Assembly: GCA_002898535.1 (NCBI GenBank)
Contig: BEHN01000003.1
Location: forward strand, 62,001 to 126,000
Origin: a bacterium HR11
GTDB lineage: Bacteria; Acidobacteriota; HRBIN11
Reading direction: 5' to 3'
Length of the DNA: 64,000 nt
The position numbers and the translations under genes were made by a program. Positions 3,430-60,447 of the stretch are shown one piece after another (positions within the stretch are counted from its first letter, which is position 1; every line of letters begins with the position of its first letter). The notes beneath the pieces are model-generated. The model searched no databases, was not told where the DNA came from, and worked only from the letters and a program-made list of their open reading frames with translations.

Positions 3430-4164
3430 TCACGTCCCCCGGCCCGGGCCGATGGTCGAGCCCACGGGTTCGCCCAGGACGATCCGCCGCAGGTTGCCCG
3501 CCTCCCAGATGTTGAAGACGATGACCGGCAGGCCGTGTTCCATGCATAGGGAGATGGCCGTCGAGTCCATGACCCGGAGGCCCATCTGGAGGAAATCTTG
3601 ATAGCTGACGTGGGCCAGCTTGCGGGCCGACAGGTTCTTGAGGGGGTCGTCGGTGAAGATGCCCTCGACCTTGGTCGCCTTCAGGAGGACGTCGGCCTTA
3701 ATTTCCAGGGCCCGGAGGGCCGCCGCCGTATCGGTCGAGAAGAAGGGATTTCCCGTCCCGGCGGCAAAGATGACGATCCGCCCCTTCTCCAGGTGCCGGA
3801 TGGCCCGGCGGCGAATGAGCGGCTCGGCGACCTCCTTGACCTCCAGGGCCGACTGACAACGGGTGACCATCCCGTGCCGTTCCAGCATGTCCTGTAAGGC
3901 CAGGGCATTCATCAGGGTCGCCAGCATGCCGATGTAGTCGGCCAGGGCCCGGTCCAGGCCCTGCAGGGCGGCCTCGCTTCCCCGGAGGATGTTGCCGCCC
4001 CCGACGACGATGGCGACCTCTACGCCGAGCTCGTGGACGCTCCCGATTTCCTGGGCCATGTACTTAAGGAATTCGTAGTCGATGCCGTAAGGCTGACGGC
4101 CCCGGAAGGCCTCCCCGCTGAGCTTCAGCAGGACCCGACGGTACCGAAGACTTTCATGAGGCAT
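3430..4164 (-). CDS. pyrH: UMP kinase
   Basis: Phosphorylates UMP to UDP with ATP in pyrimidine nucleotide synthesis; cytoplasmic hexamer in bacteria. The 244-residue protein shows the amino-acid-kinase fold signatures: LLKLSGEAF near the N-terminus, [10 protein letters not shown] (phosphate loop), an [13 protein letters not shown] segment, the ATP-site [20 protein letters not shown] and [13 protein letters not shown]. Start ATG 4164 follows GGAG at about 8 bp and matches family length; the longer frame upstream is repeat-derived. It is convergent with the MacB permease (4 bp between stops). The usual rpsB-tsf-frr neighbours are absent. Confidence 0.95.
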
Positions 4165-4189
4165 GAAAATACTCCATCTCGCAGGTTGC

Positions 4190-4350
4190 CCGGATGTAGG
4201 GTACAGGATGCAGGATACAGGATGCAAGATGGGAATGAGTATCCCGTCCCTGTTCGGGAGCGCGGGGTCTGGAACGATTCGAAAGCTCGGAAATTCGGCC
4301 GGTAGGCCATTTGCATCCCGGCCTCGCTCGCTTGAGCGGGGCCGCGGAAA
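4190..4350. repeat. ATRCARG heptamers plus GC hairpin (gap 4165-4477)
   Basis: The gap between pyrH and the transglycosylase carries tandem 7-bp units (ATGCAGG, ATACAGG, ATGCAAG) at about 4199-4231, then a hairpin-forming CTCGCTTGAGCGGGG copy of the GC hairpin family near 4325-4345. No coding potential is seen. Confidence 0.7.
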
Positions 4351-4414
4351 ATGCGGTCCCCCGCTCCTGTCGATTCGATACCCAACAGCCGATCCCGAAA
4401 AAGGGTAGCAAAGG

Positions 4415-16710: not shown

Positions 16711-16858
16711 TAGGGCGGCAGGTCGGCCGATGGGCGGGTCGGGAGATAGGCAGTCGGCAGATGGGCAGGTCGGGAGATAGGGGAAATGGGGATCTATTCG
16801 CCATTCGCCATTCGCCACTCGCCACTCGCCACTCGCCATTCGCTATTCGCCGTTCGCC
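16711..16858. repeat. Octamer (GGTCGGCA) and heptamer (CATTCGC/CACTCGC) block
   Basis: Octamers of GGTCGGCA/GATGGGCA type fill about 16716-16785 and 7-bp units CATTCGC/CACTCGC fill about 16800-16858. The heptamer block supplies the final codons and stop of the minus-strand lipoprotein gene. Confidence 0.8.
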
Positions 16859-44584: not shown

Positions 44585-45475
44585 ATGGAGCGGAAGCCCG
44601 AATGGCTGAAGGTTCGATTGCCGACGGGACCCGCCGTGCGGCATCTCGGAGAGCGTCTGCGAGCCCTGCGTCTGCACACGGTCTGTGAGGAGGCCCGGTG
44701 CCCCAACCGTGGGGAGTGCTGGGGCGAGGGCACGGCGACCGTCATGATCCTGGGGGATACCTGCACGCGCGGCTGTCGGTTCTGCGCCGTCAAGACGGGC
44801 AATCCCCGGGGATGGCTGGACCCCTTCGAGCCCCTGCATACGGCCCAGATCGTGAAAGAAATGGGCCTTCGGTACGTCGTCATCACTTCCGTCGACCGAG
44901 ACGACTTACCGGACGAGGGGGCCGAGCACTTCGCCCGCACGATCCGGGTCGTCCGCCATCACAACCCCCACACGATGATCGAAGTCCTGATCCCGGACTT
45001 CCACGCCCGGCCGGAATGCCTGCAGGTCATCGCCCAGGCCCGGCCCGACGTGGTCGCCCACAACATCGAGACGGTCCGCCGTCTCACGCCCCGGGTCCGG
45101 GACCGGCGGGCCGGCTACGATCAGTCCCTACAGGTCCTGGCCTACTTCCGGGACCATGCCCCGGACCTCTACCGGAAGTCCTCCATCATGGTCGGCCTCG
45201 GGGAGACCTTCGACGAGGTCGTCGAGACGATGCGGGACTTGCGGGACGCCGGCTGTCAGATCTTGACCATCGGTCAATACCTGCGGCCGACGCCCCGGCA
45301 TCTCCCGGTCGTTCGGTACGTGCCGCCGGAGGAGTTCGAGGCCTGGCGACAGGTCGGCATGGAGATGGGCTTCCTGTACGTATTCGCCGGCCCCCTCGTC
45401 CGGTCCTCCTACCGGGCGGCCGAGGCCTTCCTGCAGGCCCTTAAAGCGCCTCAGACGGCGGCCCAGCCGATCTGA
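44585..45475 (+). CDS. lipA: Lipoyl synthase
   Basis: 296 residues. Radical-SAM enzyme inserting two sulfurs into octanoyl-lipoyl domains. Auxiliary cluster Cys in [14 protein letters not shown] (C-x4-C-x5-C), radical-SAM [13 protein letters not shown] (CxxxCxxC), and a C-terminal Arg-Ser-Ser-Tyr ([11 protein letters not shown]) that caps the auxiliary cluster. All functional motifs are present. lipB and the 2-oxoacid dehydrogenase genes are not in the window. Its 3' end overlaps the convergent orphan gene by 25 bp. Confidence 0.95.
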
Positions 45476-46062
45476 GGGCGGGCCTCCGCTCGAAGTCGAT
45501 TCGGTGAAGCGTCCGCCAGCTCGGGCGACGCGGCCGAGACGCGGGCCGACGGCTCGGACTTCTGGATGGCTTCGAGGACCTGCCGGACGACGGCCCGGTC
45601 CCCGGCGGGCCGGTTCTCGCTGACCTTGACCAGGTATTCCAGCCACGTGGCCGGGACAGCCTCAGGCCGGAGGACGCCCGCTTGCAGGGCTTTCCAGAGG
45701 CCTTCGGCGAAACCCCGAGGGTGGAACTGGATGCACATCAAGGGAATGGCCGAGTGGAGCAGGGCCGCCGGCCAACCCCGGAGGGCCCAATACACCAGAT
45801 GGTCCATCCACAGGGACCTCCGCTGGGCCGCTTCCAGGAGCCACCCGACGACGACCGGGGCCCACGCGGGGTCATGCGGTCGATGGCGGATTAGGAGCTG
45901 GGCCAACTGGACGTACAGCCACCCGTCTCGGACCCGGTGGGCGACCTGAATCCAGGCCCGCAGACGTTCCTCGGAAACGGGTCCCTCCCCCCGGAGGGCC
46001 TCCCGGACTTCCTGAACGGTCCGGAGAAACGTCGCGATCTCCGACGTCTTACCCTTTTCCAT
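45451..46062 (-). CDS. Orphan helical protein, 203 aa
   Basis: Unrecognised protein, strongly alpha-helical and Trp/Leu/Arg-rich (about 20-160: [40 protein letters not shown]), with a low-complexity tail that overlaps the lipA 3' end on the other strand. No signal peptide or membrane helix of full length. ATG 46062 is preceded by a near-perfect AGGAGG at 7 bp, which argues strongly that it is translated. It could be a HEAT-like or four-helix protein. Confidence 0.55.
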
Positions 46063-46343
46063 GACCTTCCTCCTACGTGTCAATACGGGTCCAATGCGAT
46101 ACATGTAGCGGAGCAACCTACTAAAGTTTGTATCAAACTCTGTGCCATTCCGGAAAATGGAGTCCTGCGGCCGCAAAGGCCGGACCCGCTGGGAGCTCGA
46201 TGTGTCTCACGGACACGGCGTCCTTGAAGGAATCCCGATCCGGCGAGACTTTCTGTGTCTCAGGTGATACAGCGGGTTGGCAGCAGCTGACGTTATTGTG
46301 GCTTTTTGGGTCATGAATAGCGGATGGCGAGTAGCGAGTAGAC

Positions 46344-46372
46344 TTGACATTTCCCGGCCCTTTGCGAAAATA
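46344..46372 (+). promoter_or_regulatory. Promoter candidate for the 46.4-46.7 kb RNA
   Basis: A perfect TTGACA (46344-46349), 17-bp spacer and AAAATA (46367-46372). A transcript would begin near 46379, directly before a long hairpin. Confidence 0.5.
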
Positions 46373-46376
46373 AGGT

Positions 46377-46422
46377 AAAAAGCCGTCCCGTATGCGAGCC
46401 AGCCAAGCTCAAGAGGGACGGC
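46377..46422 (-). terminator. Terminator-like hairpin with U-tract (minus strand)
   Basis: Read on the minus strand, GCCGTCCC..GGGACGGC (8 bp) with an inner GAGC..GCTC is followed by TTTTT. It could end read-through from the homoserine-dehydrogenase-like gene or a minus-strand RNA. The same DNA is the first hairpin of the plus-strand RNA candidate. Confidence 0.45.
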
Positions 46423-46661
46423 GCGGGGTGTCCTGTGGAGCCTGGGGTCTCCGGGCGCACCGGCGGCGCGTGGGGGCTGTCGGACGCGGCCGGAGGGCGC
46501 TCCAGGCGAAAGCGGGCGCAAGCCTGCGGGCCGGGTCCGAGCCGTGCCCGGCGTCGGGGATAGGTCGGGCCGTAGGGCGGCTTCTCTCGGGCGCGAGGGC
46601 CGTTCTGCGTCTGACCGAAAAAGGTTTGGTCGTGGAGGCCGACCCCGGGGGTCTGGTGGCC
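46379..46661 (+). ncRNA. Candidate structured RNA of unknown family
   Basis: A GC-rich stretch with no credible protein lies in the 776-bp gap 46063-46838. Hairpins seen: GCCGTCCC (46382-46389) with GGGACGGC (46415-46422); GCGGGC-GCAA-GCCTGC (46512-46527), a GNRA tetraloop; AGGGCGGCT (46574-46582) with GGCCGTTCT (46598-46606) enclosing CTCG-GGCG-CGAG; and GGCC..GACCCCGGGGGTC..GGCC (46637-46661). I looked for RNase P, tmRNA, SRP and 6S signatures and found none. The strand is inferred from the promoter; a terminator-like hairpin on the other strand leaves this open. Confidence 0.35.
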
Positions 46662-46838
46662 CTGTAAGGTCTCCCGACGAGGCCGAAATCCAAGCCTTCC
46701 GTGATCCGGGAATCAAAGACCCTGGAAGGTGAAACGGTTCAGACGCGAGACATCCGGGGTCCGGAGTGCCCGAGCCGCTCGTGACGGCCTATGAACCGCC
46801 CGCTACGACATCACGCCGTTGCGGCATCACGAAAGCCG

Positions 46839-48562: not shown

Positions 48563-48634
48563 CGATGGCGAATGGCGAGTAGCGAACGGCGAATCGCGAA
48601 TGGCGAATGGCGAACGGCGAGTGGCGAATGGTCT
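48563..48634. repeat. GCGAATG/GCGAGTG heptamer array
   Basis: About nine tandem 7-bp units (GCGAATG, GCGAGTA, GCGAACG, GCGAGTG). It is part of the 745-bp gap 48498-49242, which otherwise holds element M copy 4 and GC hairpins; no gene is seen. Confidence 0.85.
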
Positions 48635-48655
48635 GCCGTCTGTCTCCGAGGTCCC

Positions 48656-60058: not shown

Positions 60059-60391
60059 ATGCTCCGACCTGTAGAAGAAGCTCACCTCCAACAGGTCGAA
60101 CGAGAGCTCCTCGAAGAGAAGGCCCACGCCCTGGGTCGAATTGGACGCCGGCTCTTGGAGCTTTCGCAAACGCTGGCCGAGCTCTGGGCGCGCTGGACCG
60201 CCGGGGACCCCACGGTCGTGGAGGCCTATGTCCGGATTCGTCGGGAGTTCCGGACCTACCTCTGGTATTGGCACGTCCAACGGGAGGCGGTCGGATTCCG
60301 GGCCCATCCGTCCCCGGAGACGTGGCTCTTTGTCCCCCCGCCCCTGCCGGCCGACGGTGGGGACCAGGGGCGAAGAGCGAGTGGCGGATAG
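60059..60391 (+). CDS. Small helical protein of unknown function
   Basis: 110 residues, mostly charged helix: about 5-75 has coiled-coil character (EEAHLQQVERELLEEKAHAL, RIGRRLLELSQTLAELWARW), followed by RIRREFRTYLWYWHVQREAVG, a compact C-terminal motif. The start at 60059 lies 27 nt after the predicted transcript start; ATG 60029 would be at or before it. The final residues (RRASGG) come from heptamer sequence. No family recognised; a YggL- or SlyX-like role cannot be excluded. Confidence 0.55.
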   Translation: MLRPVEEAHLQQVERELLEEKAHALGRIGRRLLELSQTLAELWARWTAGDPTVVEAYVRIRREFRTYLWYWHVQREAVGFRAHPSPETWLFVPPPLPADGGDQGRRASGG

Positions 60392-60447
60392 CGAATGGCG
60401 AATGGCGAGTGGCGAATGGCGAATGGCGAGTGGCGAATGGCGAATAG
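60375..60447. repeat. GCGAATG/GCGAGTG heptamer array
   Basis: About ten tandem 7-bp units (GCGAGTG, GCGGATA, GCGAATG), beginning inside the preceding gene's 3' end and running towards the DHH gene. Confidence 0.85.

Follow-up and report, generated by a model that had tools for sequence, protein, structure and literature searches.

TnpB elements include the closest described systems for the locus reported here. In ISDra2, the reRNA corresponds to the 3' end of tnpB, the right end of the element, and about 16 nt of the flanking DNA (PMC8612924). TnpB can cut its own mRNA into omegaRNA, or trim the omegaRNA from a longer transcript (PMC10278001). Elements of the IS607 family have a GG core (PMC6188088, PMC10711439), and the TnpB of one member, ISXfa1, has GGG as its adjacent motif (PMC10711439).

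Our locus lies within a stretch of 64,000 nt of DNA (the window), where a preliminary description proposed a new structured RNA with its own promoter at positions 46344-46661. We are highly confident of another reading: the feature is an internally deleted, decaying, non-autonomous copy of a tnpB-only element of this Acidobacteriota lineage, with an IS1341-like organisation and IS607-like GG ends. Its true extent is 46274-46737 (+ strand), so that 464 bp are left of an insertion element of ~1.53 kb. The ends were set from the junctions, and the full-length copies L010 and L013 and the empty site in a sister genome also support the assignment. A structured segment and a promoter-like leader are indeed present, but both come from a mobile element of a known kind and were joined by an internal deletion.

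At the level of the boundaries, we aligned 10 left and 13 right junctions, and the limits of the element were sharp, with different flanking DNA each time. The left-end consensus was (N)GGG[TC]TG[GA]CA[AG]CAGCTG..., and the right-end consensus was ...GGAAGGTGAAACGG or a close variant. In the window copy, the left end (46274..46305, + strand) starts with GGGTTGGCAGCAGCTGACGTTATTGTGGC, which is kept in all left ends, and includes an imperfect terminal hairpin (46276-46291) that a scan classed as terminator-like. The tnpB leader follows at 46315..46381 (+ strand), with 82% identity to positions 103-169 of L010, just upstream of the tnpB start. Within it, the promoter scan found TTGACA at 46344-46349 and a -10-like GAAAAT/AAAATA at 46366-46372, with the hexamer ending at 46371. 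The 38 bases that open the feature as first described belong to this conserved leader, and they match two further places in the genome on their own.

The leader ends at the deletion junction (46381..46382), where window position 46381 corresponds to L010 position 169 and 46382 to L010 position 1175. When 1.5 kb around the feature was compared with loci of the same genome, the two halves were 1,005 bp apart in both L010 and L013; thus, ~1,005 bp are gone, including the tnpB start and the greater part of the coding sequence. What remains beyond the junction is the tnpB 3' end (46382..46715, + strand), running from the zinc-finger codons as far as the former stop codon, with its frame broken by indels and stops. 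It contains a GCGGGC-GCAA-GCCTGC hairpin with a GNRA tetraloop (46512..46527, + strand) that intact tnpB copies have too. The right-end hairpin, followed by TGAAACGG, closes the element (46694..46730, + strand); its stem has 12-13 bp in intact copies and is partly decayed here.

We searched the window's own genome (G000, 2.99 Mb, 49 contigs) and found the segment from 46382 onwards in five other long copies, at 86-89% identity, and in many partial ones. The surrounding gap, described earlier as free of repeats, therefore holds a dispersed repeat. Counting intact, decayed, and cut-off copies together, this genome has about a dozen or more. Many of them are located at contig ends, and thus several of the partial copies were probably cut by the assembly. 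The derivatives L014 and L016 have a second internal deletion in common, with identical breakpoints, and inserted tandem-repeat arrays are common to L014, L016, L017, and L019, which suggests that tnpB-less derivatives themselves spread. The deletion junction of the window copy was absent from all other copies compared, and this copy need not have moved since its deletion.

As a separate observation, heptad-like tandem arrays of GCGAATG/GCGAGTA occur across this genome and the sister genomes, and also in the left end of the element. They interrupt the tnpB remnants of the four derivatives named above (in L014, at 4060-4400), and a second array type, ATGAGCC/GGCTCAT, likewise interrupts these remnants. 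In the window, the GCGAATG/GCGAGTA arrays are found at 16775-16850, 48568-48641, and 60376-60443.

The sole gene of the intact element is tnpB, and two copies contain a complete ORF of 442 codons (187-1515 in L010; 4812-6140, minus strand, in L013). The 442-aa protein matches the Cas12f1-like TNB domain PF07282 (E=1.6e-14; 54 bits, with a cut-off of 26.3), and its C-terminal third aligns with Cas12f/TnpB structures. The NCBIfam guided_TnpB model scored 75.9 bits, below the curated cut-off of 100, and we therefore consider it a divergent TnpB. Within the phylum sample, TnpB relatives presented identities of only 25-47%. No close relatives were found among GTDB contigs, viral contigs, and plasmids, the plasmid matches being weak (28-38% identity), and a search of the phylum with the right-end DNA returned only scattered short matches.

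The RuvC-II glutamate is retained in the TnpB copies. The RuvC-III site reads AHRQRVGAVGV in all copies that cover it (L010, L013, L011, L012, and L009), and in the alignment Q360 falls opposite D406 of a solved Cas12f, that is, opposite the RuvC-III aspartate of TnpB/Cas12f relatives. The third catalytic residue of this multi-copy family is atypical and possibly inactive, although atypical RuvC sites can remain active (PMC10278001). A second TnpB family of the genus has a histidine at the same position, within GNRHILAAWNI and MNRHLLAAWNI; its loci are L036 (G000 C8:10964-12049) and L046 (in the genome G002).

In the window copy, positions 46367-46711, when translated, give the C-terminal ~115 residues of TnpB (76% identity), interrupted by two TAA stops, where the preliminary description had seen no protein-like frame. 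It is on this basis that we assign the proposed promoter to the tnpB leader, and the proposed RNA to the tnpB 3' end plus the right end. An ORF at 46392-46667 includes CGAWGLRAHRRRVGAVGRGRRALQAKAGAS, and a 7-bp deletion is found in the tnpB 3' end. The new substitutions of this copy numbered 5, 8, and 10 by codon position, without codon-position bias. We also considered that the remnant might still be coding; the stops, the frameshifting indels, and the absent codon-position bias ruled this out.

The insertion is located between lipA and a homoserine dehydrogenase gene. In the sister genome G001 (Acidobacteria bacterium SKYB104), matched stretches place these two genes ~190 bp apart, and the element is absent from this gap. 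When the flanks at 46273 and 46738 were joined, they aligned continuously to the G001 gap (...ACAGC|TTCAG... vs. ...ACAGCAGGTCCAG...), with a score of 312.5 vs. 251 for the unjoined sequence. This empty site shows small differences from the joined flanks. For the derivative L014, the empty site found in G002, GATGGGCTTACTG, is exact. Both empty sites are compatible with a GG core and no target duplication.

The joined alignment skips window DNA to the left of the element because G001 also lacks a small ORF at 45451-46176. This ORF (minus strand, 241 aa), which had no Pfam match, separates lipA from the element. Closer to the element, ~70 bp on its left side (46200-46272, GTGTCTCACGGACACGG...GAGACTTTCTGTGTCTC) show good conservation in the G001 gap between lipA and the homoserine dehydrogenase gene, and may be a shared terminator or regulatory hairpin.

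The hairpins of the earlier description are real: the stem GCCGTCCC/GGGACGGC pairs 46382-46389 with 46415-46422, and the tetraloop hairpin is there as well. Starting at 46375, a 291-nt stretch has a folding energy of -173 kcal/mol (z = -3.59 relative to dinucleotide shuffles). However, of 48 pieces of 291 nt drawn at random from this GC-rich and repeat-rich window, 3 presented an equal or lower z-score, and folding alone is therefore just moderately unusual. In the intact copy L013, scanned in windows of 160 nt, the structure z-score stayed near 0 along most of the gene and dropped, to between -1.5 and -3.1, only within the final ~400 nt. Since this is where TnpB elements encode their guide RNA, the hairpins probably derive from an omega/reRNA scaffold, predicted here from position and folding. 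A consensus fold of 13 copies contained 62 pairs, of which 99% were kept vs. 37-55% with the partners slid, a value partly built in because the fold was derived from the same 13 sequences. Covariation in these copies amounted to one compensated pair, and they are too similar for a proper test.

For known RNA classes, Rfam at gathering and relaxed thresholds gave nothing relevant for the window or the intact copies, in agreement with the earlier statement that the feature could not be matched to RNase P, tmRNA, SRP, 6S, or a riboswitch class. At gathering score, the window contained only tRNAs, and the feature region had a lone chance match to mir-611 (22.7 bits; cut-off, 90).

Taking these results together, we propose that a tnpB-only element came to lie in the gap that separates lipA from the homoserine dehydrogenase gene, and that an internal deletion of ~1 kb, either in place or in a derivative that then inserted, took away most of the tnpB coding sequence together with its start. 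This deletion placed the leader and its promoter-like motif directly before the tnpB 3' end and the right end, and the hairpins are this 3' segment, which in intact copies is probably the omega/reRNA scaffold. The sub-threshold NCBIfam score and the failure to find a transposase able to move the element weigh against this reading. The promoter-like motif, the strong folding, and the lack of an Rfam match speak for a stand-alone structured RNA gene that has its own promoter and no relation to any mobile element. The TTGACA box with its AT-rich -10-like hexamer is certainly present, as one site in 1.8 kb vs. 0.2 expected; what finds no support is a new RNA gene that evolved independently under a promoter of its own. 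The same DNA belongs to tnpB genes elsewhere in the genome, the ends are those of a mobile element, the orthologous locus of the sister genome lacks it, and random pieces of the window can fold comparably. We give a separate RNA gene practically no chance, as the tnpB homology and the empty site rule it out. A miniature element that lost tnpB, kept both ends, and moves as such when mobilised in trans is a less remote alternative, although still an unlikely one. The window copy has kept its two ends intact, and the deletion and arrays common to several other derivatives make these seem to have spread; however, the junction of the window copy is its own, and neither expected transposase type was found. 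In this 95%-complete genome, neither the serine recombinase tnpA (PF00239) nor the Y1 (HUH) tnpA of the IS200/IS605 type (PF01797) gave a match, and control genomes did for both. This alternative is compatible with the internally deleted element that we favour and differs from it solely in the timing of the deletion.

The remaining alternatives concern a retained RNA function. As an orphan guide-RNA locus, the copy would have the tnpB promoter before the omegaRNA scaffold, and an omegaRNA with its guide starting from ~46738 would be used in trans by an intact TnpB. The leader motif, the 3' structured segment, and the right end are all retained, the genome has intact TnpB genes, and the trimming of omegaRNA from longer transcripts has been described (PMC10278001). 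Against this, substitutions in the truncated copies did not avoid paired positions when each structure was derived from one intact copy (p=0.18-0.78), pairing in the right-end stem is partly disrupted in the window copy, and the intact TnpBs have the atypical RuvC-III motif, all of which leaves the orphan locus very improbable. We give slightly less credence still to a version in which the deletion created a stand-alone guide-RNA gene, whose omegaRNA would guide an intact TnpB in trans in a complex that might bind rather than cut DNA, because the usual RuvC-III aspartate is absent (Q360) in every intact copy. Substitutions at paired positions seemed too few (p=0.01), which would have pointed to selection on RNA structure in the truncated copies, but this signal turned out to be circular and was discarded. 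Synonymous divergence, considered because lower values at the tnpB 3' end could point to an overlapping RNA, varied along the whole gene (pS 0.03-0.24) and had no clear step at the 3' end. With no positive sign of retained RNA function in the truncated copies, the window copy is most likely a non-functional relic.

The sequence feature is real, but its explanation is ordinary: it is a truncated copy that belongs to a mobile element of a known kind, and one supposed new RNA family can be struck from the list of candidates. Besides, it illustrates how, in GC-rich genomes, the 3' end of tnpB can mimic an independent structured RNA gene once the upstream part of the gene is deleted.

Compared with known systems, the structured segment resembles the ISDra2 reRNA and the haloarchaeal sotRNAs (RF02656/RF02657), which occupy the same position, from the tnpB 3' end through the right end, and are rich in stem-loops (PMC8612924, PMC12558985). 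It differs in that even the intact copies have no Rfam match, and in that the upstream tnpB is deleted in the window copy. With the IS1341-type elements (tnpB-only; IS200/IS605/IS607 group), the element shares a single tnpB between conserved ends, multiple copies, and a length of ~1.5 kb, and tnpA is absent from the element, as in the IS1341-type organisation (PMC9956272). Unlike them, it has a divergent TnpB (about 25-47% identity to the relatives found) and GG ends, and most of tnpB is lost in the window copy. GG at both ends and a GG core at the empty sites are held in common with the IS607 family, which has a serine recombinase, whereas this element has none. The family is thus a modest addition to the diversity of TnpB elements: multi-copy and tnpB-only, with GG ends, an atypical RuvC-III, and several tnpB-less derivatives.
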